Part shown: positions 5,312-51,220 of the stretch, one piece after another | Layout of the letters: every line of letters begins with the position of its first letter | How positions within the stretch are numbered: the stretch's first letter is position 1 | From: a virus | Virus record (IMG/VR): IMGVR_UViG_3300036766_002274 | Coordinates: 1-54,402 of that record | DNA length: 54,402 nucleotides | Reading direction: 5' to 3' (one strand) | Translations under genes and position numbers: made by a program | The notes under the pieces: model-generated | What the model saw: only the letters and a program-made list of their open reading frames with translations | Database searches by the model: none | Told to the model about the DNA's origin: nothing

Positions 5312-6595
5312 TTACGGGTTGTAGTAAGGGATGTAGCGGAGGTTGCCGCCGACGTACCACGGGATGCGCCCTGCGTAGGTGCCAAGCGCAGTAGCGTCAG
5401 CATCCGGCGACGTGAACGCGCCGTTTGACGTGACCGAGAACTGTACCTGCGATGCGTTGTCCAGTACCTGAAACGAGTTAGACCCGGCCGCGTCGTTGAG
5501 GTTGATGGACAGGACAGTGCCTGTGCATTGGATCGAGTTGGTTTGGTTGCCTATGTTTGTTGAGTAGCCGGGGAAGAACTTTCCGTAGGCCGAGACGCCC
5601 AGTGAGTCACAGACGACACTCCCGCCGTTACCCCCGCGACCATACAGGGTGGCATCTTTCCCAGAAGGGGCCCCGAAGAAAATCCCAGTGGAAGTGGCCC
5701 AAATAGACCCTACATCGACGCCGCCCACCTTCCACTTGATGCTGTCTCCGAACGACCCCGCGCTAACAAGCGTGATGCCAGTGCTGTCCCAAAAACTGCC
5801 GTCAGCGTCGATAATCTTCCCACCAGCCCCGAGTGTAATTGTTCCAGAGACAGTAAGCGCACCCAAGTTCATCGTGCCGCCAGAGTTACCGAGTGTGCCA
5901 GAAATGGAAGCGCCATTAACTGTGCCAGCAGCCGAAAATGTAAGCGCGCCAGTAGTTATCGAAGAAGCGGAGAAGTTCGACACAGTGATACTTGCACAGT
6001 TCAGTGTGCCCGACGTGATACTAGCAGCACTAAGCGTGCCAGCGAAGGTTCCCGTCGCAGCACTCAGTGAACCTGCGAATGTACCAGAGGCAGCAGACAG
6101 TGCGCCACTGAAGGTGCCGCCACCGTTGACGCTGAGTGCAGCGCCACCGGCTGCGCTTGCAGCCGCGTAGGGGATACCCGCCGTCGTCGGGTTACTGATG
6201 GTCACACTGCCCTTGATGGTCAGTGTCGTGCCGTCCCACGTCAGGCCAGACGTACTGCCCGCGTTGCCAATCCTGAACTTCGGCGTGCCACTGTCGTTGC
6301 CCAGCCAGAAGCCATCGTGGGCCACGTCCGCGAAGGTGGTCATACCCTCTTTGATGTTGCCGCCTGTACCGATGGTGATGCCCGACGTGACACTCATGGC
6401 TCCGGTCACGGTCAGGGCACCAGTGTTGGCCGAGACAGCCGCCAGCTCGCTCACGTCAATCATGGATGACGTGATGCTCTTCGCCTTTAACAGTGCAGGG
6501 GAGATAGTCCCCGGCCCGAGCGCGCTCCTCTGGGGGAACGCGCCGTCGAGGAAGTCGTTCTTGAAGTCGATGAGTTCCTGAAGAATCCTGTCCAT
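5312..6595 (-). CDS. Tail fibre/appendage protein with beta-repeats
   Basis: 427 aa from ATG 6595, just after the upstream stop. A short helical N terminus (RILQELIDFKNDF) is followed by a long Gly/Ser/Thr/Ala-rich region with near-repeats such as TFAGSLSAATG and TFAGTLSAAS, then GTLNCAS, GTVNGAS and similar. A more ordinary C-terminal domain starts near residue 270 (DADGSFWDSTG) and ends PYYNP. This is the pattern of a trimeric beta-structured fibre with a C-terminal tip. It follows the connector and nozzle genes and precedes lysis. A receptor-binding role is inferred from layout only. Confidence 0.7.
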   Translation of the reverse strand: MDRILQELIDFKNDFLDGAFPQRSALGPGTISPALLKAKSITSSMIDVSELAAVSANTGALTVTGAMSVTSGITIGTGGNIKEGMTTFADVAHDGFWLGNDSGTPKFRIGNAGSTSGLTWDGTTLTIKGSVTISNPTTAGIPYAAASAAGGAALSVNGGGTFSGALSAASGTFAGSLSAATGTFAGTLSAASITSGTLNCASITVSNFSASSITTGALTFSAAGTVNGASISGTLGNSGGTMNLGALTVSGTITLGAGGKIIDADGSFWDSTGITLVSAGSFGDSIKWKVGGVDVGSIWATSTGIFFGAPSGKDATLYGRGGNGGSVVCDSLGVSAYGKFFPGYSTNIGNQTNSIQCTGTVLSINLNDAAGSNSFQVLDNASQVQFSVTSNGAFTSPDADATALGTYAGRIPWYVGGNLRYIPYYNP

Positions 6596-17365: not shown

Positions 17366-20300
17366 TTAACGTGTCTTGCTGGAGGAGTAGTCGAACAGTG
17401 GCTCAGAAGCCATCTGCAACTTGTTGTACTTGTTCTCGTAGTAGGCCATCGTTCCCTTGACAGGAGCCTTGTTGTAGAACTTTTGCAGGCTGCTGTCCAT
17501 GGCTGGGTTGTCGAGGCGCAGAAGCGTACGTTGCCCACTGAGCAGTTTCTGGAATGCCTTCATAGCCGGGTCACTAGAGAGTGAGTCCAGCATGTTTTGC
17601 ACAGGAATCCCGCGCTGCTGTGCCGCGTCCCGCACTGCTGTCTCGAACTCGCTGTATGTATTGAATCCATCGAAGACGCCAAGTCCCTTTACGTACTCAA
17701 AGGCAGTATCTGCCGCATCGTAGTAGGGCTTCGTCGCAGCCTTGGCTGCGTCGTAGTCCCTGCCGAACTGGGTGTCCTTGGGCTTGTCAAACGAGGCAAG
17801 GCGCTCGTCAAGGTACTTCGCGTACTCGGGTGCCGTCTTTGCTTTAAACGCGGTCTGGAGCGCGTCGAGCTTGTTGAAGTCCAGCTTGCCATCCTTGCCC
17901 GTGGCTTGGTCGAACAGCGCGTACCAGTCGTTGACAACCTTGTCCTCGGGCTTCATGTAGCGGCCAAGGTAGTCGAGCACGGTCTCATCAGTGCCCTTGC
18001 GCTGGGCGGCGAGCTTGCCGAGGTCTGTCTGGGCGTCGGTGATTTCCTGACGCCGCTGCCCCGCAAGGAACTGGTACTCAGCCTTCGCATCGAAGGCGCT
18101 CGTCTTGCCAGACTTGTAGCGCGTGTCCAAGTCCTGCATCTTTGTGGTGTAGCCCTTGTTGATGCCGTCGAGCCGGTTGAAGTAGGACTGCACCGGGCTG
18201 TCCTGCCCGGTGGCATTGTCTGCCAGCGTCTTCTTCAGTTCGGCGTAGCGTGTGTTCTTGTCGAGTGCGCCACGGATACCTGTCTGCTCACCAGAGTTCA
18301 GGTCGTTGTAGTCAACGACGCCGTCCTTGTTACCGTTGACGTTGGCCCGGTCTTGCAGGCCGGGGAACTGCTTGCTCACTTCTTCAGCTTTGATGCGCGT
18401 CATCTCGCGCCCAAGCGTCTCAGGGTTGTGGTTCAGGCCAACGAAGTTGCTGAACAGGCCAGCCGCACGCTCGCGTGGATTGCTGTAGTTCGGGTCTTCC
18501 TTGAGCCCCACGTTGTCAGTGAGTGGCTTGATAAACTTACCGATAGCCGTGTGGTTCTGGATGACGCCAGTATTGAACGCAGCCTTGGCCGTGAGGGGAA
18601 GCGGCGGCTGGAAGAGCCCGTTGTTGAAGCCGGTACTGTTGCCCGGTGCGCCGATGCCTGCATCGCTGAGGTGTGACTGAAGGCCGTTACCAATCTCTGT
18701 GGCGAGAGGGCGCGTGGCCGCTCCGATGACATCAGGTGTACGCGAGGAGTACCAGTCAGCCAGCCCCACCATCGGCACCCAGTCTTGCATGCGCCACTTG
18801 CGGACACCGTCAGGACTGTCGGTACGCATGAGCGCCTTCACAAGGCCAATGACAGGATTGGACGCAGAGAGCGTCCCGGTTGCCCCGCCCTGTGCCTTGA
18901 GGAAGTTCTGGCTCTTCGGGTTGAGGATGCTGTCCTCATCCATCGGGTTCATGCTGGGCATCGAACCGGTAGCGAGGTACTGCATGGCAGCCATGCCAGC
19001 ACCCATCAAGACTGCTGTCTTCACGAGGTAGTAGCGCGCCATCGCGCCCTCTGGGCCGAAGTCCGTGCTGGCCTTCTTGGCGAGGATGAACGTGTTCCTG
19101 AGCAACGCCGGTGAGCGCGCCCCGATGGTACGCTCCCACTGGGACTGCTGCGCGCTGATGCCGTAAAGCTGCCGGTTGAGTGTCCCAGAGGTGCGGTTAA
19201 TCTGCTTCGCCGCCTGCACGCTGGACTTGATATTCTCAGCCTTACTGAGCTTCTCACCCGCGTAGCGCGCCTCCGCTTTAAATGCAGCGCGCGTGCCGAC
19301 GTTCGTCGCCAGCCCCAGAGCCAGAGCGAACCCGGCCTCGTACTGGTCATCAACGCCGGGGATGTCTACGCCTGATGCTGCGATACCAGCGCCTGCGAGG
19401 AGTGGCCCGTTCTTGAGGAACTCAGCAGCAAGCCGCCCGCCGACTGGGAACTTACCCTTGGCTGGGCCAAAGCCCTTGATAAAGTTCTCCGTCTGGCGCT
19501 GCAAGTCCCACTGGAGCGCGCGGTGGATAGGCAGGTATGCCTCGAAGCCGTGCTGCTCAATCTGCTTGACACCGGGCATGTTGGAGAGTGAGAGCTTCCC
19601 CTCCTTCTCAATGCCTTCGTGCTCAAGACCGCCAATGCCGCCAGCCTTGGTGTATGCATTCCAGAGGTCTTGGTTCTTCGATACCCAGTGGTCGAAGTAG
19701 CGCTTGCCACCGAAGGACGCGCCGACGAGCGGGATAAAGTTACGCACCGCACCCATGGGGTCGTTGATTGCCAGCATGGCACCCTGCATCGTCCAAGCGC
19801 TGAGGTCACCGGTGAACATCGCCTGCCGCAGGATGTTCGTGATGCCGTCAGCCACAGCCAGTGGGCCAGTCTCATTCCCACGGGTGGGGATGAGCAGGCT
19901 ATCCACTGCCTTGACCATCTCGGGGTGAAAGAGGTGGTCATCGATACCGGGGAGCTGACGCCAGCCCCGCTGCTCCATGCCCTTCTGTTTCACCTTCAGG
20001 TCGAGCCTGTCCTGCTTGCTGAGCGCCTGACGCTCAGCATCACTGGGAATCTTCCACGCCCCGCCTGACTCCTTCAGGTTCTGCACCAGCATCGCGTTAG
20101 CGCGAATCTGGTCGTGCCGCTTCACTTCGAGCCTGAGCAGGGCCATCGGGTCTTTGATGATGTCGAGGCCGGGCTGTGCCCGCAGCGCCGACTCATAAGT
20201 CGGGCCGAGGTCACGGAGCATCTGTGGTGAGCGCAGCCGGTCGAAGCCCGGTGTCTGCATCCTGAACGCCTTTGCAGCGTCTTCGCCAAAGACGCGCCGC

Positions 20301-31710: not shown

Positions 31711-33222
31711 TTACTCTACTTCTGCGTCATGTTCCACTTCCTTCTCGTCGTGTACGCCGGTGCTCTCGTAGTCAGCTAATACTGGTGCAGTAATTGGCAA
31801 CTGGGCCTGCACCATTGTCCCGCCTCTGGTAAGCGGGCGCATCCGCCCGCCGTTTGTGAGGGAGATAACGAACGGCAGTTCGCCAATCTCGCCGTGCCTG
31901 TTCTTGGTGAACACGACCAGCACTGTCATCTGGCCGTCCTCGTGAATACGCTTCGCAATCTCCTCACGCAGCAGTCCGCGCCAGCCACCCGTCTCATGGT
32001 TGGGGGCGACGGGCATCAGTGAGATAGCGCAGTCAACATCCTGATACTTGGACGAGCTGCCCTTCATGTCCTCAACGTCCAGTGAGGACTTCTTATTCAT
32101 CGACTTCTCACCCTTGCTGACGTGCGTGATGAGAATGATGTGAACGTCACTGTTCTTGGCGATGCTCTTCATCGCCCGCATGATGGCTGACTGCTGAGCA
32201 ATCGTGTCGTCCTTGTACTTCTCGGTGCCGAGCATGTCCACGAGGTCAACGATGACGTACTTGATGTCATGCCACTTCTTGTACCGGGTGACCGCAGCAC
32301 GGAAAGCGCCCACGTCCACCTCGGACTTGTCCGAGATGTAGATGGGGAGGTCGCGCAGCTTCTCGATGCTGCGCTGAATCTCGTCCCGGTAGTGGTGGAT
32401 GGTGTGGTCGCGGCGCAGCCAACGGAAGTTCTTGGCGATGTCGAGCTGGACGATGCGCTCCTGCACTTGGAGCTTGGGCATCTCCGTCGTGTACCAGAGG
32501 CCACGGTGCCCACGGAGCGCCAGCCTGTAGCCGATGTTCGTGGCGAACATCGATTTAAAGCGGCTGGACGGCGCATAGATGATGGTCACGTTCCCCGGCT
32601 GGAACCCATCAAGGTAGCGGTCGAACAGCGTCCAGCCAGTCTCGATGCCAGTGATGGCATCAGGGTCATCGATGTACCGGTCGAAGCGCGCCTGCAAGGC
32701 GTCGAGGTCGTCACCCATCTTGGTGACATCCTTGCTGGCCGCGCCGGTCGTCTCGGTCTGGAGCGTACTCAGCCGCTCCTCAATCTGGGCGCGCACGGCA
32801 GCCAAGTCAGTCGGGGCTGAGCCAGCGAGCTTGCGTGCCCAGTCGGCAAAGCCGATGAGGTCGCGCTCGCCGCGCTTCTTCGTGACCACCGCCGTCCAGT
32901 AGGTCGTGTCCTGCGGCAGGACACCCTCCATGGAGCCCATCACGATGGAGCCGCCGCCCATCTCGCTCAGGATGTTGCCGCCGTCAGCGGTCTTCGTGTC
33001 GCTCAGCTTCCGCATCACGGTCTGGGCGTTCACCGGCTGGTTGGTGGCGACCATCTCACAGATGGCCGCGAAGGCGTTCCGGTACGGCTTGCAGTAGAAG
33101 TCATCCGGGGCGAGTGCTGTCATCGCCTCGGTGACACTGCTCCCCGAGAGCAGCATCCCGCCAATCACTTGGCGTTCAGCCTCGATGTCTGATGGCAGCT
33201 CGTCAACGTCAAGTGGTGGCAT
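31711..33222 (-). CDS. Replicative DNA helicase, DnaB-like
   Basis: 503 aa. The N-terminal helical domain (SDIEAERQVIGGMLLSG, PDDFYCKPYRNAFAAI) and C-terminal RecA-like domain are arranged as in DnaB. Walker B is IKYVIVDLVDM near 322 and the sensor strand is HIILITHVSKGEK near 365. The Walker A site is unusual: YAPSSRFKSMF (about 215-225) has Phe instead of Gly before the Lys, and the first Gly is also missing. The F-K codons there form a TTTAAA word. It would unwind the replication fork, with the prim-pol at 44.5 kb as a likely partner. Start overlaps the upstream gene by 14 nt. Confidence 0.88.
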   Translation of the reverse strand: MPPLDVDELPSDIEAERQVIGGMLLSGSSVTEAMTALAPDDFYCKPYRNAFAAICEMVATNQPVNAQTVMRKLSDTKTADGGNILSEMGGGSIVMGSMEGVLPQDTTYWTAVVTKKRGERDLIGFADWARKLAGSAPTDLAAVRAQIEERLSTLQTETTGAASKDVTKMGDDLDALQARFDRYIDDPDAITGIETGWTLFDRYLDGFQPGNVTIIYAPSSRFKSMFATNIGYRLALRGHRGLWYTTEMPKLQVQERIVQLDIAKNFRWLRRDHTIHHYRDEIQRSIEKLRDLPIYISDKSEVDVGAFRAAVTRYKKWHDIKYVIVDLVDMLGTEKYKDDTIAQQSAIMRAMKSIAKNSDVHIILITHVSKGEKSMNKKSSLDVEDMKGSSSKYQDVDCAISLMPVAPNHETGGWRGLLREEIAKRIHEDGQMTVLVVFTKNRHGEIGELPFVISLTNGGRMRPLTRGGTMVQAQLPITAPVLADYESTGVHDEKEVEHDAEVE

Positions 33223-34599: not shown

Positions 34600-34824
34600 C
34601 GGCGTCTCCTCACACGGCCTATGCCGTGATGGACGAAGCGGCTGGGGTAGTTAGAAGAACTTGGACTTGGGAATGCCGGTTCCCCAGCCACCTCGCGTGA
34701 TGTGTTTGCACCTCACACTCTTAGAGTAACCGTCTCATGCAACGCAGTCTATGTCCTTCGCGCGCACCGGGCGGCGCGGCGCAAAGACGAAGCGCCCAGT
34801 GGTGTGTGGGGTTTTTGTGCCCGC

Positions 34825-34854
34825 TGGACACGAAGTGTGGAAATAGTGTATACT
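34825..34854 (+). promoter_or_regulatory. Sigma70-like promoter into the structured region
   Basis: TGGACA (34825-34830) and TATACT (34849-34854) are separated by 18 bp; five of six and five of six bases match consensus. It points into the non-coding region and the plus-strand genes. The next 110 nt contain the attenuator-like hairpins, so a transcript from here would meet them at once. Confidence 0.7.
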
Positions 34855-34871
34855 AGTTAAACAGAAGCTTT

Positions 34872-34964
34872 AAGCCTTGCCGAACTGCCAAGTGAGGCAA
34901 GGCTTGGCATAGATAGAACAGCACTAAAGGCCAAAGCCGACAAGGCTTTGGCCTTGTCGGCTTT
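34872..34964 (+). promoter_or_regulatory. Attenuator-like mutually exclusive hairpins
   Basis: First, AAGCCTTGCC (34872-34881) pairs with GGCAAGGCTT (34896-34905). Then two perfect hairpins overlap: AAGGCCAAAGCC (34927-34938) with GGCTTTGGCCTT (34944-34955), and AAAGCCGACAAGG (34933-34945) with CCTTGTCGGCTTT (34952-34964). Only one of the last two can form at a time. The second ends in a short T-run, like an intrinsic terminator. With a promoter just upstream, this is the layout of a transcription attenuator. No riboswitch ligand core is recognised. Confidence 0.65.
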
Positions 34965-34979
34965 AAACAGCCAAGCTCC

Positions 34980-35047
34980 AGTCTTACCCTAAAAGCCAAA
35001 GCCAGCTCTTCGAGCCTTGTTTTGGCTTTGTCTTTTAGGCTAAGACT
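34980..35047 (+). repeat. 24-bp near-perfect long hairpin
   Basis: Arms 34980-35003 and 35024-35047 pair at 22 of 24 positions. The 20-nt loop holds a small GCTC-TTC-GAGC hairpin. The stem uses the same words (CCAAAGCC, GGCTTTG) as the attenuator upstream, so the elements can also pair with each other. It could be an RNase III-type processing site, a terminator-like barrier or part of an origin. Confidence 0.7.
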
Positions 35048-35086
35048 TACGCTTGGCTTTTAGCTTGGCTTTCTTGGTCGGGGAAG

Positions 35087-35257
35087 ACGATGCCACACCC
35101 GCAGGTGGGGCATCGTGTAAGCCCCCGTGCCAAATACTCGTTTCACTCGTATGGTCGTCCATGGCGGAACAGAGTGGAGCCATGGCTTGCTTGAAGCTAA
35201 GCGAAGAAGCGAGATGTCCCCCTACGGGGCCATCTCGCGGTATGAAAGAGCTTAGCT
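35087..35257 (+). repeat. Cluster of further hairpins
   Basis: ACGATGCC-A-CACC and GGTG-G-GGCATCGT pair at 35087-35116 with one mismatch. CCATGGC (35159-35165) pairs with GCCATGG (35179-35185). A two-layer hairpin follows: AGCTAAGC (35195-35202) with GCTTAGCT (35250-35257), enclosing GCGAGATG-T-CCCC (35209-35221) with GGGG-C-CATCTCGC (35226-35238) around CTAC. No reading frame with coding character spans this part. Confidence 0.65.
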
Positions 35258-35310
35258 GGCACAGCCAGCGTCCCCCCAGAAGTGGTCACCACGTGTCGTC
35301 TTTCCGCCGC

Positions 35311-35480
35311 AGGCATATTAGATAAGTATCTATAACATACCTGTTGTGTGTAGCCTTTAAAGCTCAGTTTGTATGTAATATAAACATCCACTTAGTTCAC
35401 ATAGGTTCATTAAGCGGGATTTAAAAATCGGAGGGGGTTCAAGGCAAACCCCATGACCCCTCAGATTCAAAGTGTTAAAT
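35311..35480. other. AT-rich patch, possible origin or promoter site
   Basis: This is the most AT-rich stretch of the window. It has the near-palindrome AGATAAGTATCT (35320-35331), two TTTAAA words (35356, 35420), and TTTAAA spaced 17 bp from TATAAA (35379-35384), a possible weak plus-strand promoter. It sits where transcription diverges, between the helicase side and the prim-pol side. Easy melting and central position would suit an origin, but no iterons are visible. Confidence 0.35.
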
Positions 35481-35513
35481 AGACGACGTGTTTTTACCCT
35501 TCAAGCCGGGTGG

Positions 35514-36534
35514 GGTAGTACTACCGTGCCTAGGCCGACCGCGACCGGCGATACCCCCACCCCCACCCCTGCCCAGCATCGCCTGCACGTCTGCGCCGTG
35601 CTCGCGGCTCGTCCTCGCTTGCTGGCATGCAAGCGCACTGCGCCGCCACGGGCGGACGACTAATCAGCACCGGCCTGACTACGTTCTCACTGAGAAGCAC
35701 GGCAACGGCACGGCACGGTTCCCTATACCCCTCCGGGGTATCACATCGGCGAGGTACACCACGCCACAAACCGCCGTGCTCACGGCCCGGCAGCGTGAGA
35801 CTTGCCAGCGCACGCCGAGACTGGCACGTCGAGGTTGTCACATGTAAATGTCCCAACCGCATACGCATGTGTTGTATGACACAGCACAGACTGTACCCCT
35901 GTATGTCGCATATCTGGCCCAAAATGTGCTTGACAGTCTCGCTCGGCAGGTTCAATCTGAGCACATCGAAGCCGAGACGCCCACCGCAAGGTGGTGCTCC
36001 ACTTCAGACATCGCCAGAGTTCACCCGCCAGCCGGAAACGAAAGAGCCGCCTATCAAGTGACACACCACCGGCAACCCAGCCGCACCGGAGAGGCCCAGA
36101 CAAGGCCCGGTGTGTAGAAGGGGAGCCGCAACGGTCAAGCCGCAACAATGCCGCCCCGATGTGCCTAGCACGCCTAACTCGACTAGATGGTATCAGTCGA
36201 GTGCTCCCCTTCTACCGGCGGTCGCGTAACCTGAGCGATTAGCAGAACAGGGAGCATGGACGCCAATCGGTACAATCCCGATGTGCGCTCCGCCGAACGT
36301 CAACGGTTAGGTTGACGTGCATCAGCGAGCGTAGTCGCTGACTAACCCGTGCCATTAACGCAGTATGGGCACATCTCTTACCCCGGAGCCTAGCAAGCCC
36401 CGGCCATCTACCGGAGCGCTCGATTCACAGTAGCGCAACCGGCAAACACATCTCTTAGGTGACTGGCGAGCATGGCAAGTAATCAAGCATGCGCCAGTCA
36501 CGTTGCAGTCACGTCGCACGGGTTGGCACCCGTG
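35514..36534 (+). ncRNA. Candidate large structured RNA(s), about 1 kb
   Basis: No convincing gene lies in 35.5-36.55 kb on either strand; readable frames lack ribosome sites and family features. Inverted repeats are dense: CGCTTGC/GCAAGCG (35616/35629), ATACCCC/GGGGTAT (35725/35735), CCACC-GCAA-GGTGG (35981-35994, a GNRA loop), ACACACC/GGTGTGT (36061/36109) directly abutting AGAAGGGGAGC/GCTCCCCTTCT (36116/36203), which encloses GTGC-CTA-GCAC and ACTCGACT/AGTCGAGT (36177/36195). Next come ACGTCAA/TTGACGT (36297/36312), TCAGCGA/TCGCTGA (36322/36335), GTGACTGGCG/CGCCAGTCAC (36459/36492) and CACGGGT/ACCCGTG (36517/36528). The loop GGTTAG (36305-36310) can pair with CTAACC (36342-36347), a pseudoknot. 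Comparable in style to large ornate phage RNAs, but not matched to a known class. Confidence 0.55.
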
Positions 36535-36557
36535 ACATGAATTAGGAGCTTCGAAAC

Positions 36558-36617
36558 GTGAAGACCTTTATTGAGGATTCCATCTACGAAATCGACGCCA
36601 GCGACTACGCTTCGTGA
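36558..36617 (+). CDS. 19-aa micro-gene
   Basis: GTG 36558, with AGGAG about 10 nt upstream, opens a 19-codon frame (KTFIEDSIYEIDASDYA) whose stop overlaps the next gene's GTG. It is acidic. It may be a real small peptide or a translated leader that couples ribosomes into the next gene. The evidence is the ribosome site and the overlap only. Confidence 0.4.
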   Translation: MKTFIEDSIYEIDASDYAS

Positions 36618-36757
36618 ATATCGACCGCAGCGAAGTATCGCGCCTACTGGCGAAAGCCATCGCATACAAGGAGTGCGGCAATCGCGCGAAAGCTGACGAC
36701 TACGCTCGCCAGCTTGTCTACGCCTTGCAGTGCGCCAATATCCTCAACAACTCTTAG
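36614..36757 (+). CDS. Small helical protein
   Basis: 47 aa from GTG 36614, overlapping the previous stop as GTGA. One long amphipathic helix is likely (SEVSRLLAKAIAYKECG, ADDYARQLVYALQCANIL). The LAKAIA segment and its codons recur in the 38-aa protein at 37202-37318, so the two are probably related. Function unknown. Confidence 0.55.
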   Translation: MNIDRSEVSRLLAKAIAYKECGNRAKADDYARQLVYALQCANILNNS

Positions 36758-36790
36758 TGCATCCCGCCGCAGGCGGGTGGAGATTCTGTC

Positions 36791-36895
36791 ATGAGTGACC
36801 CGATTCTTGGCATCACCGAACGATGGGACACAGACGCTCTTATCGAGTTGTCACACGCCATCCTCACGCTCGTCGTCGTGAGGGATGCATCGTGA
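36791..36895 (+). CDS. Truncated paralogue of the 240-aa protein
   Basis: 34 aa. Its first 26 codons match the N terminus of the gene at 37475 (SDPILGITERWDTDALIE then variants), about 78% identical at DNA level, after which it ends VVVRDAS. It looks like a partial duplication that kept a start and stop. The GTG of the next gene overlaps its stop (GTGA). It may be a relic or a translation-coupling leader. Confidence 0.5.
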   Translation: MSDPILGITERWDTDALIELSHAILTLVVVRDAS

Positions 36896-36984
36896 AGTGT
36901 GAGCGTTGCGGCCGTCCCGTCGTCGTCCTCACGGATATTGACCTTGCATGGTGCAAGGTCTGCCAGCATGGAAGCACATCATGA
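36892..36984 (+). CDS. 30-aa zinc-knuckle peptide
   Basis: Starts at GTG 36892 and overlaps both neighbours by four bases. CERC near the N terminus and CKVC near residue 21 give a complete CxxC...CxxC set within 30 residues, enough for a mini zinc ribbon. It is one of several tiny metal-binding genes in a row here. Function unknown. Confidence 0.55.
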   Translation: MKCERCGRPVVVLTDIDLAWCKVCQHGSTS

Positions 36985-37205
36985 CATGCGAAGCGTGCGT
37001 GCAGCCGTCTAATCTTGTCGAGTTCACAGATGAGCAAACCTACGTGACCCATCTGTTCGATGGGAGCCAGACGTACAATACCAGCCCATTACGCGCCATT
37101 TGTGGCGCGTCCTTCCGTGATGCCGAGTATCTCAATCTCGGCATCGTCGATAGCGGCGGATACTGTTTCGCGTGTCTCTCCGCAGAAGAGGAAGCTATCT
37201 CATGA
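36981..37205 (+). CDS. Small zinc-binding protein
   Basis: 74 aa from ATG 36981 (ATGA overlap). CEAC near the start and CFAC near residue 64 flank a beta-rich middle (VTHLFDGSQTYNTSP, ICGASFRDAEYLNLG). It ends with an acidic tail. A split zinc ribbon is likely. Starting further upstream would overlap the previous gene without a ribosome site. Function unknown. Confidence 0.65.
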   Translation: MTCEACVQPSNLVEFTDEQTYVTHLFDGSQTYNTSPLRAICGASFRDAEYLNLGIVDSGGYCFACLSAEEEAIS

Positions 37206-37318
37206 CTCGTATTCACACGCTTTTGTTGGGAGCACTGGCGAAAGCCATCGCCAATGGCGATACCACCCGTGTGCGGTTCATCGTCGCCGAACTCTGCGAG
37301 GTTGCACGTCATGCATGA
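37202..37318 (+). CDS. Small helical protein
   Basis: 38 aa from ATG 37202 (ATGA overlap). TRIHTLLLGALAKAIANGD resembles the 47-aa protein upstream at LAKAIA. It is followed by RFIVAELCEVARHA. Probably one or two helices. Its stop overlaps the next start by 8 bases. Confidence 0.5.
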   Translation: MTRIHTLLLGALAKAIANGDTTRVRFIVAELCEVARHA

Positions 37319-37478
37319 CGTGCTTCTCCGCTTCGCTATCAAGAACGGCCTTAGTCCATGCAAACGGTGCAGCGTCGTTTACGGCGACGCTGACGATTGC
37401 GGCCCGTTCACTTGCGGTAACTGTCTGCGTGGCAGCAAGGCCCGCGACCGTGCCAATTTCACGGGAGGAACACTGTGA
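37311..37478 (+). CDS. Small zinc-ribbon protein
   Basis: 55 aa from ATG 37311. CKRC (near 17) and CGNC (near 35) with the spacing of a zinc ribbon, followed by a basic tail (LRGSKARDRANF). Its stop overlaps the GTG of the 240-aa gene (GTGA). GTG 36892 to here is one chain of overlapping metal-binding genes. Possible nucleic-acid binding. Confidence 0.62.
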   Translation: MHDVLLRFAIKNGLSPCKRCSVVYGDADDCGPFTCGNCLRGSKARDRANFTGGTL

Positions 37479-38197
37479 GCGACCCGATTCTAGGCATCAC
37501 CGAACGATGGGACACGGACGCGTTGATTGAGATATCCCATACCATCCTCGCCCCTGCCCAGTGCCCCGCACTGCCCAGCCCGTTGCGTATCCGCACCGGT
37601 GCTGTACCCGGCACAAAGGGCACGAGCCAGAAGGTGCTGGGCTACTACGTTGCGCCTGACAAGGCAGAGGACAAGGTGCCCAGCTTCTACATCTCGCCGC
37701 TTGTCGGCGACACGGTAGGCGCGCTCACTATCATGACGTGGCTTGCTACGTTTGCCGCCTACCCCGACGACGATTGGAAGAAACGCAGCAACCGGAGTCA
37801 CCTTGCCGAACGTCTCGGTTTTGCCGCTCCCTATAGCACGCCGGTGGCAGGCTCGAACTTGCGCGTGCTCCTCGATGAGGTTGCGCTCTCGCTCGTGAAA
37901 GAGCGCCCACACTCGTGCATCGACGTGTCTAAGAATCCCATTATCCGCACACAGGCCACGAGCCTGTTGACCGGCGAGTGCCAGCTTTGCCATGGCAAGC
38001 ACAGGCCCACGCTCGCCACACTGGCATCGGGCTGGCCCGAGTGCAGCGGCAACGGTGGACACCGCCGCGTGCTCATTAACTGCTGGTCTGGCACACGCAC
38101 GGCTGGCCTCACGCCAGTCTCGCCGCTTGGCTTGAACATTCCTTGCCGCCCGTACGCCACCGGTTCCGGTGGCGTGCCCATCTTTGAGCCCATCTAA
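37475..38197 (+). CDS. Hypothetical protein, 240 aa
   Basis: Begins at GTG 37475. The N-terminal 26 residues are duplicated in the 34-aa gene at 36791. The middle is mixed alpha/beta (VLGYYVAPDKAEDKVPSFYI, ALTIMTWLATFAAYPDD). A CQLC pair (near 166) with later Cys may bind metal. It directly precedes the AAA+/VWA pair, with an AGGAG before that start, so it may be part of their system. No family is recognised. Confidence 0.7.
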   Translation: MSDPILGITERWDTDALIEISHTILAPAQCPALPSPLRIRTGAVPGTKGTSQKVLGYYVAPDKAEDKVPSFYISPLVGDTVGALTIMTWLATFAAYPDDDWKKRSNRSHLAERLGFAAPYSTPVAGSNLRVLLDEVALSLVKERPHSCIDVSKNPIIRTQATSLLTGECQLCHGKHRPTLATLASGWPECSGNGGHRRVLINCWSGTRTAGLTPVSPLGLNIPCRPYATGSGGVPIFEPI

Positions 38198-47648: not shown

Positions 47649-47722
47649 GCCGGTGTCGTACAACGGTAGTACGCCTGTTTTGTAAACAGGAAGTGTAGGT
47701 TCAACTCCTGCCACCGGCTCCA
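47649..47722 (+). tRNA. tRNA-Thr (anticodon TGT)
   Basis: Acceptor GCCGGTG/CACCGGC is perfect. Anticodon stem CCTGT/ACAGG with loop TTTGTAA gives TGT (Thr, ACA). T arm GTAGG-TTCAACT-CCTGC with one G-T. Discriminator T and CCA encoded. ACA is probably rare in a high-GC host, so codon supplementation is a reasonable purpose. It is 4 nt before the next tRNA-like gene. Confidence 0.92.
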
Positions 47723-47726
47723 CATG

Positions 47727-47799
47727 CCGCGCGTCGTCTAAGTAGGACACTCACCCTCGATGGTGAGAGATGAGGGTTCAATCCCCTCCGTTCGGCCCA
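47727..47799 (+). tRNA. Unusual tRNA-like gene with 8-nt anticodon loop
   Basis: Acceptor CCGCGCG/CGTTCGG has one C-T mismatch and one G-T. D arm GTCT-AAGTA-GGAC, T arm GAGGG-TTCAATC-CCCTC perfect, encoded CCA. The anticodon stem CTCAC/GTGAG encloses eight bases (CCTCGATG) instead of seven, so the decoded amino acid cannot be assigned (CGA, if T is position 33). D-arm sequence resembles Glu/Asp tRNAs. It may be a decoy, a frameshift-type tRNA, or a decayed gene. The TTTAAA word at 47800 starts right after its CCA. Confidence 0.7.
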
Positions 47800-48871: not shown

Positions 48872-49047
48872 CCGCCACTTCTAAGTGGGTGCAGTTCATC
48901 ATTGAGTACCCCGTCAATGCTGCCGATGCCGCCATCCTAGAGGTACTTGAAATTGCACGCAGCACGGGCTATGCCCGCGTTGTCAGTGTCGCTGCTCCGG
49001 TGGCATCGCCGGATGACGACAAAGAATGGACAATCGACGATGACTAG
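48868..49047 (+). CDS. Small hypothetical protein
   Basis: 59 aa from GTG 48868 (overlaps the upstream stop). SKWVQFIIEYPVNAADAAIL and ILEVLEIARSTGYARVVSV form an alpha/beta pattern. It ends acidic (DDDKEWTIDDD). Its stop lies 8 nt inside the RNA ligase gene. Function unknown. Confidence 0.55.
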   Translation: MTATSKWVQFIIEYPVNAADAAILEVLEIARSTGYARVVSVAAPVASPDDDKEWTIDDD

Positions 49048-49969
49048 TTGGCACAGTTACCCAAGCATCTTCAACTTCGGCCACAAGGCCGTACGCGACA
49101 TCTTCTCCAAGCCGGTCATCGTAGAGGAGAAGGTAGACGGCAGTCAGTTCAGCTTCGGCCTCATCAATGGCGAGCTTCGGCTCAAGTCCAAGAAGCAGGA
49201 GTTCACCGTCGATACGGCACCGACCCTGTTCAGGCTCGCTGCCCAGACCGTCAAGAAGCTCAGTGATGACCTCGTCCCCGAGTACACGTACCGTGGCGAA
49301 TACCTGTCCAAGCCGCAGCACAACACGCTGGCCTACGACCGTGTGCCGGGGCAGCACATCATCATCTTCGACATCAACGATGCCGAGGAGTCCTACCTCA
49401 CTGTCAACGAGAAGCGGTTCGAGGCACTCCGCCTCGGGCTTGAGTGCGTGCCGATGTTCCTCGCTGGCGACAGCGTCACCTACCAAGACATCCTTGGTTT
49501 CCTCGAAACCACGAGTGTTCTCGGTGGTCAGAAAGTAGAAGGCGTGGTCGTCAAGTCCCTCTCTCTCTATGGAGAGGACAAGAAGCTCCTTATCGCCAAG
49601 CACGTCAGTGAGGCGTTTAAAGAGATTCACGGCGGCGAGTGGCGCAAGAACAACCCTGCGAAAAGTGACATCATCGCCGGGCTTATCGCTCGCTACGGTG
49701 GCCCTGCTCGCTACGCCAAGGCAGTCCAGCACCTTCGTGACGAAGGCGTCCTCGAAGACAGCCCGCGTGACATCGGCAAGCTCATCCCAGAACTCAAGCA
49801 AGACTGGGCGAAGGAGTGCGAAGACGACGTGAAGGCCATTCTCTGGACGCACTTCCGAGACCAGATTGAACGCGGCGTTCTTGCCGGGTTCCCGACGTGG
49901 TACAAGTCCGAGCTGCTCAAGCAGCAGTTCGGTGAGCCAGAACTTGAAGAGGAGCTGATAGCAGCATGA
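49040..49969 (+). CDS. RNA ligase (Rnl2-like nucleotidyltransferase)
   Basis: 309 aa from ATG 49040. Motif I EEKVDGSQF places the AMP-accepting Lys near 31. Then RGEYL (near 95), IIIFDIND (motif IIIa, near 116), EGVVVKS (motif IV, near 167) and LLIAKHVSEAF (motif V, near 184) follow in order. The C-terminal 110 residues are helical. It would seal nicks in RNA with ATP. A polynucleotide kinase-phosphatase gene lies 390 nt further on, forming an RNA repair pair as in T4, and tRNAs are encoded nearby. Substrate preference (tRNA or mRNA) is not visible. Confidence 0.87.
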   Translation: MTSWHSYPSIFNFGHKAVRDIFSKPVIVEEKVDGSQFSFGLINGELRLKSKKQEFTVDTAPTLFRLAAQTVKKLSDDLVPEYTYRGEYLSKPQHNTLAYDRVPGQHIIIFDINDAEESYLTVNEKRFEALRLGLECVPMFLAGDSVTYQDILGFLETTSVLGGQKVEGVVVKSLSLYGEDKKLLIAKHVSEAFKEIHGGEWRKNNPAKSDIIAGLIARYGGPARYAKAVQHLRDEGVLEDSPRDIGKLIPELKQDWAKECEDDVKAILWTHFRDQIERGVLAGFPTWYKSELLKQQFGEPELEEELIAA

Positions 49970-50208
49970 CCGCACCATACGCAGTCCGTGACCTCCCGCT
50001 CCGTAAGCAGCGGGTCAACGACAGCCCGCAGGCATACGTGGCACCGACAGGTGTCGTCCTCTGCGACCAGTCCAACAAGGTCTGCCATCTCACACAGGCC
50101 GAGGCCACTATGGTCATCACGAAGCTGGGGCGACCCAGTCTTCGCGCCTACCAACACACCGCCCCGAAGGGGTGTGGCTACTGGCATATCGGGCACGTTA
50201 TCTCATGA
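49966..50208 (+). CDS. Small hypothetical protein between ligase and kinase
   Basis: 80 aa from ATG 49966. Polar with two Cys (VLCDQSNKVCHLTQAEA) and a GYWHIGHV end. It overlaps the next gene by 4 nt. Position inside the RNA repair row suggests a link, but nothing in the sequence shows a role. Confidence 0.6.
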   Translation: MTAPYAVRDLPLRKQRVNDSPQAYVAPTGVVLCDQSNKVCHLTQAEATMVITKLGRPSLRAYQHTAPKGCGYWHIGHVIS

Positions 50209-50363
50209 GCACAACACTCACGAGCTTCTGTGTCGGTATGTCGCTGGGCATGTCGCTGATTGGCCTTGGTGCCATCCTCACATCGCCAATCACCGGCATC
50301 ATCTGCATGCTTGGTGGCGTCTGCTGGGGCATCATCGCCGCCGACCTCGGAGGTGGAAAGTGA
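50205..50363 (+). CDS. Small two-helix membrane protein
   Basis: 52 aa from ATG 50205 (ATGA overlap). Hydrophobic helices FCVGMSLGMSLIGLGAILT and IICMLGGVCWGIIAA joined by SPITG. Overlaps the kinase GTG as GTGA. Third small membrane protein in this 2-kb row; function unknown. Confidence 0.6.
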   Translation: MSTTLTSFCVGMSLGMSLIGLGAILTSPITGIICMLGGVCWGIIAADLGGGK

Positions 50364-51220
50364 CCGCTCTCGACATCACCTACACGCGTGGTTTGCCGGG
50401 CTCCGGCAAGACCACGTGGGCACGGGAGTTCCTCAAGAACAACCCCGGTTACAAGCGCGTCAACAATGACGAGCTGCGCCTGCTGCTCGATGGCGAACAG
50501 TTCAACCCGAAGAACGAGGGCTTTGTTCGCATTGCCCGCAAGGCACTTATCGCCGTTGCCCTCGGTGACCGCAAGAACGTCCTCGTGGACAACTGCAACC
50601 TGTCCCCGAAGGCCGTCGCTGAGCTGGAGAACATCGCCGCTGCGCACGGTGCCACCACCACCGTCAAGGACTTCACTGACGTGCCGTTCAGTGAGTGCAT
50701 CAGGCGTGATGCCCTCCGGCAGTGCCCCGTTGGCCGCAAGGTCATCAAGCGCATGCGCGATGACTTCCTCCGTGACCAGAAGGTCGTGTATGAGCACGAC
50801 AACAGCCTGCCCAAGTGCATCCTCGTAGATATGGATGGCACGCTCGCTATCCATGGTACGCGTGGAGTCTACGACTTCGAGCACGCTGGCGAAGACGCTT
50901 TAAACGAAGCGGTCGCTTGGCAGGTAGCACTCTGCCACGAAGCTGGCATGAGCGTCATCATCGTTACCGCTCGCGAGGCGAAGTACCGAGAAGTCACACG
51001 CGACTGGCTCAATAAGCACGAGGTGCCCTACAACGCCATCCACATGCGTGGCACCTTCGATGACCGCGAGGACAGTATTGTCAAGCGCGAGCTGTACGAG
51101 AACCACATCGATGGCAAGTACAACGTGCAGGCTGTCTTCGATGACCGCAACCGCGTCGTCAACATGTGGCGCGACCAGCTCGGCCTGACAGTCTTCCAAG
51201 TCGCTGAAGGCGACTTCTAG
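50360..51220 (+). CDS. Polynucleotide kinase-phosphatase (T4 Pnkp-like)
   Basis: 286 aa from GTG 50360 with GGAGG upstream. The N-terminal kinase has P-loop GLPGSGKTTWA (residues 11-21) and a lid-type basic region. The C-terminal HAD phosphatase has DMDGTLA (near 157) and VTAREAKYREVTRDWL, then FDDRNRVV. Together they turn 2',3'-cyclic phosphate and 5'-OH ends into ends that RNA ligase can join, as in T4 repair of cleaved tRNA-Lys. The ligase is in the same operon. Domain order is the T4 order. Confidence 0.92.
   Translation: MTALDITYTRGLPGSGKTTWAREFLKNNPGYKRVNNDELRLLLDGEQFNPKNEGFVRIARKALIAVALGDRKNVLVDNCNLSPKAVAELENIAAAHGATTTVKDFTDVPFSECIRRDALRQCPVGRKVIKRMRDDFLRDQKVVYEHDNSLPKCILVDMDGTLAIHGTRGVYDFEHAGEDALNEAVAWQVALCHEAGMSVIIVTAREAKYREVTRDWLNKHEVPYNAIHMRGTFDDREDSIVKRELYENHIDGKYNVQAVFDDRNRVVNMWRDQLGLTVFQVAEGDF

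Follow-up and report, generated by a model that had tools for sequence, protein, structure and literature searches.

Described phage RNAs and the genomic setting of the locus

GOLLD RNA self-assembles into an RNA-only multimer, and its proximity to tRNA genes is usual but not obligatory. Leader-peptide attenuators and translationally coupled leaders combine a short ORF that has its own ribosome-binding site with mutually exclusive RNA pairings. The put RNA of lambdoid phage HK022 acts in cis, downstream of an early promoter, and makes RNA polymerase ignore terminators. This RNA of ~70 nt folds into two stem-loops and is bound to the RNA polymerase of E. coli (PMC9378689). GOLLD and ROOL are large ornate RNAs that recur across many phages and prophages and are often encoded near tRNA genes (PMC12286853).

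The locus analyzed here lies in a virus record of 54,402 bases (GC content, 60%), the whole of which is referred to below as the window. Like GOLLD and ROOL (PMC12286853), the stretch from 35514 to 36534 is noncoding, has many helices and a possible pseudoknot, and is located in a phage genome. Unlike the usual position of GOLLD, it is at least 11 kb from the tRNA genes, which are at 962 to 1037 and 47649 to 47796. It also differs from both GOLLD and ROOL in that its structure continues into an mRNA start rather than ending and in that it is known here from a single sequence. A cmscan search of the whole window at gathering thresholds, and of 34600 to 36700 at an E value of ≤5, found no match to GOLLD or ROOL, and Rfam does not explain the stretch, which the initial annotation had also been unable to place among known phage RNAs. 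Long-hairpin microRNA matches in Rfam were far under their gathering scores and were discarded. The likeness to HK022 put is a comparison of role only, in that a structured RNA leads into rightward, probably early, phage genes; compared with put by description, the folded part here is longer (>400 nt) and reaches a ribosome-binding site.

An integrase gene is located at the left end of the window, beside a tRNA-Ala gene. The leftward unit contains head/tail, terminase, and DnaB-like helicase genes, and the rightward unit contains small ORFs and genes encoding AAA and VWA proteins, Prim-Pol, Cas4-type exonuclease, RNA ligase, and polynucleotide kinase. These two divergent units are separated by a noncoding gap of 1,958 nt (34600 to 36557; no strand assigned), defined by six-frame codon scoring and the gap list, which is the largest gap in the window. 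The host is likely actinobacterial, because the terminase shares ~22% identity with terminases from phages of Microbacterium, Mycobacterium, and Arthrobacter and the polynucleotide kinase is ~40% identical to actinophage kinases. In the region 962 to 1363, the tRNA-Ala(GGC) gene is complete and directly follows the integrase gene, and its 3' end, TAGCTCCACCAC (1027 to 1038), is repeated at 1352 to 1363, possibly as an att-site remnant. In the DnaB-like helicase (31711 to 33222), the usual Walker A region reads APSSRFKSMF, with FKS replacing GKS.

Between 34600 and 36540, almost every frame on either strand has a codon-usage score that is below or close to zero. The sole weakly positive frame, on the + strand at ~36400 to 36540 (scoring window at 36400), is interrupted by four stops, and the score becomes clearly positive only in the ORF starting at 36614. 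Based on these six-frame scores, we take the stretch to be noncoding, as the initial annotation had proposed, and we dropped a coding explanation of it.

Predicted structure of the folded blocks

Dense structure had been reported over ~1 kb, and this description holds for the 3' part of the stretch but not for the 5' part. On the + strand, positions 36050 to 36545 (496 nt) fold at -195.9 kcal/mol, compared with -167.3 kcal/mol (standard deviation, 5.9) for shuffled sequences, which is a z score of -4.83, and 0 of 100 shuffles fold as well. Perfect helices of ≥8 bp number 7 in this segment, while 1.5 are expected in shuffles (P = 0.001, 1 in 1,000; this and the other shuffle P values were calculated after the region was chosen), and its count of long helices is equaled by just 2 of 207 gene windows elsewhere in the phage. 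Its count of simple hairpins, which 53 of 207 such windows equal, is not unusual. Gene windows, too, fold better than their own shuffles (mean z score, about -0.7 to -1), and the excess stability of the 400-nt window at 36101 is above that of all 52 gene windows. In contrast, positions 35514 to 36050 have 5 helices of ≥8 bp versus 2.2 in shuffles (P = 0.07) and a z score of about -2, which is near background. This noncoding 5' half, whose + strand structure is not beyond chance, does contain the single GCAA loop that had been noted, in the hairpin CCACC-GCAA-GGTGG at about 35981 to 35994. We conclude that a structured noncoding segment at ~36110 to 36540 is well supported, and that the presence of a functional RNA here is a well-founded prediction based on single-sequence statistics for a region picked post hoc.

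All of the elements of this segment are described on the + strand. The first is a domain at 36114 to 36215 that is closed by a 13-bp perfect helix (36114 to 36126 with 36203 to 36215) with a pair probability of about 1 (like all pairing probabilities given here, an equilibrium prediction from energy models without pseudoknots, kinetics, or proteins). Both fold prediction and helix search identify an inner hairpin at 36177 to 36202, which meets the closing strand at 36203 with zero bases between them, exactly the junction previously described. A second abutting junction, previously placed at 36115/36116, is also present, but its boundary in the minimum free energy fold is at 36113/36114, 2 nt away. 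The adjacent domain, 36216 to 36296, has the closing helix CGGCGG/CCGCCG and the inner hairpin ATCGG/CCGAT; its closing helix appears in some predicted states only, and alternatives are possible. It is followed by the perfect 8-bp hairpin ACGTCAAC-GGTTAG-GTTGACGT, with a 6-nt loop (36297 to 36318; pair probability, 0.92 to 1.0), and by the hairpin TCAGCGA-GCGTAG-TCGCTGA (36322 to 36341). Farther 3', two copies of CACATCTCTTA (36370 to 36380 and 36447 to 36457) are predicted to be mostly unpaired, and a hairpin GTGACTGGCG...CGCCAGTCAC at 36459 to 36501 is found by fold, helix search, and pair probability. The last element is the hairpin CACGGGT-TGGC-ACCCGTG (36517 to 36534), which lies 9 nt 5' of an AGGAG sequence and has no T run after it.

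The sense of 36110 to 36540 is probably rightward, because the 400-nt window at 36101 has a z score of -5.0 on the + strand versus -3.4 on the - strand and because, among the four bases, A is predicted to be unpaired most frequently. No terminator-like site is predicted at or after 36050, including after 36534, and therefore a rightward transcript should run into the ORFs. Among promoter-like sites in the region, the best is TGGACA-18-TATACT at 34825 to 34854 on the + strand, a prediction only; just 3 sites in the whole window, counting both strands, score as high, and a start there would imply a 1.7-kb leader. The best candidate near 36110 is at 35930 (TTGACA-17-CAATCT) and has a poor -10 element, and no convincing promoter was found just 5' of 36110 among the predicted sites.

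Directly 3' of the site at 34825, and outside the coordinates of the initial annotation, is another strongly structured block, 34856 to 35345, which is listed on the + strand but folds on both strands (z scores of -9.23 on + and -9.50 on -). It consists of three long hairpins followed by smaller ones and has 16 perfect helices of ≥8 bp, compared with 1.7 in shuffles. Within it, a 14-bp hairpin (34933 to 34964) and a 12-bp hairpin (34927 to 34955) are mutually exclusive, and positions 34969 to 35058 form a single near-perfect 90-nt hairpin of -47 kcal/mol.

Predicted alternative pairings and a leader model

The pseudoknot that had been proposed can form: the GGTTAG loop (36305 to 36310) and CTAACC (36342 to 36347), which lies 3' of the hairpin 36322 to 36341, are both present, and their duplex would contribute -5.7 kcal/mol. 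A pseudoknot of this type arises in 1.3% of shuffles. As sole evidence it is weak, because pseudoknot-type motifs number 7 per strand across the 54-kb window. A proposed switch, in which AACCCGTGC (36344 to 36352) pairs over 9 bp with GCACGGGTT (36516 to 36524) in competition with both the pseudoknot and the 3' hairpin, stands as a perfect complementarity between two sequences, each of which occurs once on the window's + strand. However, its predicted occupancy is just ~20% in the partition function, versus ~68% for the competing 3' hairpin.

The strongest long-range feature is a different one, which was absent from the initial annotation. Downstream of the folded segment, a Shine-Dalgarno-like AGGAG (about 36544 to 36548) precedes a short + strand ORF of 18 codons (GTG at 36558 to TGA at 36617), a candidate leader peptide with a codon score near zero and no known homologue. 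The end of this ORF, CAGCGACTACGCT (36599 to 36611), is a perfect 13-nt complement of 36328 to 36340 and ends 2 nt before the next start, that of ORF 2 (36614 to 36757, + strand, 47 amino acids). The GTG of ORF 2 shares bases with the stop codon of the short ORF, and no Shine-Dalgarno sequence is seen upstream of it. Complementarity of 13 nt between the leader and 36541 to 36760 is reached in 0.1% of leader shuffles (1 in 1,000). The pairing excludes the hairpin 36322 to 36341, whose 3' part it takes up. At equilibrium in free RNA, the 13-bp pairing has a partition-function probability of 0.98. When 36590 to 36625 are held open computationally, as by a ribosome, it falls to 0 and the hairpin rises to 0.75; when the RNA is lengthened stepwise, the hairpin is favored (0.6 to 0.96) until 36611 is made and then falls to 0. 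This computed exchange is the behavior that would be expected of a translation-sensing leader, and the pairing of 36328 to 36340 with 36599 to 36611 appears to be better supported than that of AACCCGTGC with GCACGGGTT as the alternative pairing.

We tentatively favor, as a possible rather than a probable reading, the model that ~36110 to 36557 is a structured untranslated leader that acts in cis on the mRNA of the rightward gene cluster. A cis-acting leader is preferred to a free-standing RNA because the structure, with no terminator predicted, extends as far as the candidate ribosome-binding site that precedes the first rightward ORF. The leader is contiguous with this site and with two overlapping small ORFs, and its sequence allows two pairings that exclude each other. 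In one predicted state, the hairpin 36322 to 36341 would be formed and the loop of 36297 to 36318 would be free for the CTAACC pseudoknot, which may be stabilized by a ligand, protein, or RNA. In the other, 36328 to 36340 would be paired over 13 bp with the final codons of this ORF, the short one, just before the ORF 2 start. The hairpin/pseudoknot state would come first during transcription. If the short ORF is untranslated, the 13-bp pairing would close and the overlapping ORF 2 start would be shut; if ribosomes are on the short ORF, the pairing would be kept open and ORF 2 would be translated by coupling. In this way, the leader could govern how much of the rightward products is made, or when.

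The model resembles leader-peptide and translationally coupled leaders in having a short ORF with its own candidate ribosome-binding site and exclusive predicted pairings, with one of them located within the ORF and beside the next start. Unlike attenuators, the locus has no terminator hairpin with a T run at or after 36050, and therefore control would be translational. Also unlike leader-peptide attenuators, the short-ORF peptide, MKTFIEDSIYEIDASDYAS, has no run of regulatory codons. On this reading, the locus would be a structured phage leader of a likely new variety. If this is true, a protein-free, translation-sensed switch stands at the head of the rightward genes in a temperate-looking phage that has no detectable close relatives, and a large structured leader is added to the few cis-acting RNAs listed for phages. 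It is a concrete prediction, in which a single 13-bp pairing competes with a single hairpin; should it prove wrong, the case shows how far single-sequence structure can mislead when there are no relatives. The ORFs that follow have a feature of their own: the small-ORF block from 36614 to 37550 appears to be duplicated, with MSDPILGITERWDTDALIE at 36791 and 37475 (84% identity over 74 nt); each copy is preceded by LAKAIA-type ORFs.

Competing readings and the search for relatives

The initial annotation had proposed a candidate new phage RNA and had named GOLLD and ROOL as large ornate RNAs known in phages. The structured noncoding segment that it identified is retained, but a separate large RNA of the GOLLD or ROOL kind is not borne out: there is no Rfam match to either, the tRNA genes are distant, no terminator or other 3' boundary is predicted after 36534, and the structure runs into the adjoining AGGAG and ORF. 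A free-standing, trans-acting phage RNA of a new class, similar in kind to GOLLD and ROOL and comprising either ~36110 to 36534 or, with the upstream block, 34861 to 36534, is in our judgment unlikely. It would account for the two structured noncoding blocks in a 2-kb gap, for the position of the strongest promoter-like site immediately 5' of the upstream block, and for the pseudoknot and GNRA-type loop, and Rfam offers no other explanation. However, the middle part, 35514 to 36050, is at the chance level of structure, and no homologue is present in the scanned collections, whereas GOLLD and ROOL recur widely (PMC12286853). A broader version, in which the whole gap from 34861 to 36557 would be a new large phage RNA class with two folded blocks and a linker, exerting cis control of the rightward genes and maybe also existing as a separate RNA, we regard as very unlikely.

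The inverted repeats might instead act as DNA, bound by protein or extruded, in a replication origin, an operator cluster, or a packaging or recombination site. The divergent regulatory gap adjoins the DnaB-like helicase gene, perfect inverted repeats are numerous, and the fold of the upstream block is as good on one strand as on the other, all of which would suit such an element. Yet the repeat arms have no common sequence, unlike sites for one protein; there is no DnaA box in the region (TTWTNCACA occurs once in 54 kb, at 17595) and no tandem iteron array was found; and the helices nest, abut, and compete, with long-range pairings spanning ~100 to 280 nt, which better suits single-stranded RNA. 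We therefore consider a DNA-level element quite unlikely. A doubtful reading, too, is that this is ordinary spacer of a GC-rich genome, in which some hairpins are functional (terminators or ribosome-binding-site hairpins) and others are due to chance. The background of simple hairpins, of stable folding, and of pseudoknot-type motifs in this phage is what such a spacer would be expected to show, but long perfect helices are rare elsewhere, the z scores over 36050 to 36545 and in the upstream block are far from that background, and phages seldom retain 2 kb without genes.

The virus has no detectable close relative in the collections searched. A blastn search of 34600 to 36600 against phages and plasmids gave no match, and no relative with this region or with common gene order was found in the viral collections, the genome collections, or by phage and plasmid blastn. 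Because the collection scans depend on exact identity over short peptide or DNA stretches, and records closely similar to that of the window may be missing from them, this result does not amount to nonexistence of relatives. A covariance model of 36216 to 36352 found only itself at a meaningful E value among 97 sources and nothing in 32 virus records. The 44-nt 3' half of the tRNA-Ala has no exact match in GTDB genomes. Alignment of the terminase detected 80 loci in the viral collection, at ≤28% identity and none with common gene order, and one match in GTDB genomes, at 23%, in an actinobacterium. In 396 genomes of the phylum of that actinobacterium, there were short weak matches only, three of them clustered in GC-rich sequence at ~35557 to 35619 and taken as chance.

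Pattern searches were similarly unproductive. The terminase Walker-motif pattern had 12 matches, none in a terminase-like frame, which we attribute to chance, as we do the 2 matches to the small-ORF motif pattern; the 2 matches to the CACATCTCTTA repeat pattern were unrelated. The DnaB variant-motif pattern had no match, and single-protein scans of the viral collection with the AAA protein and DnaB returned nothing. PNKP alignment detected at least 80 loci, with ≤45% identity among the matches listed. One of these, contig L112, also has the RNA ligase in common (43%) but has neither a matching AAA gene nor the noncoding DNA. In the window, the RNA ligase and polynucleotide kinase genes are adjacent (48947 to 51220) and make up a tRNA- or RNA-repair pair; many other viral contigs, L112 among them, carry relatives of both genes together. 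An unrelated viral contig (L197, positions 5700 to 6020) contains several intergenic inverted repeats of the form TGTCACAACAC...GTGTTGTGAC, with CACATCTCTTAATTAAAAGAG between some of them.
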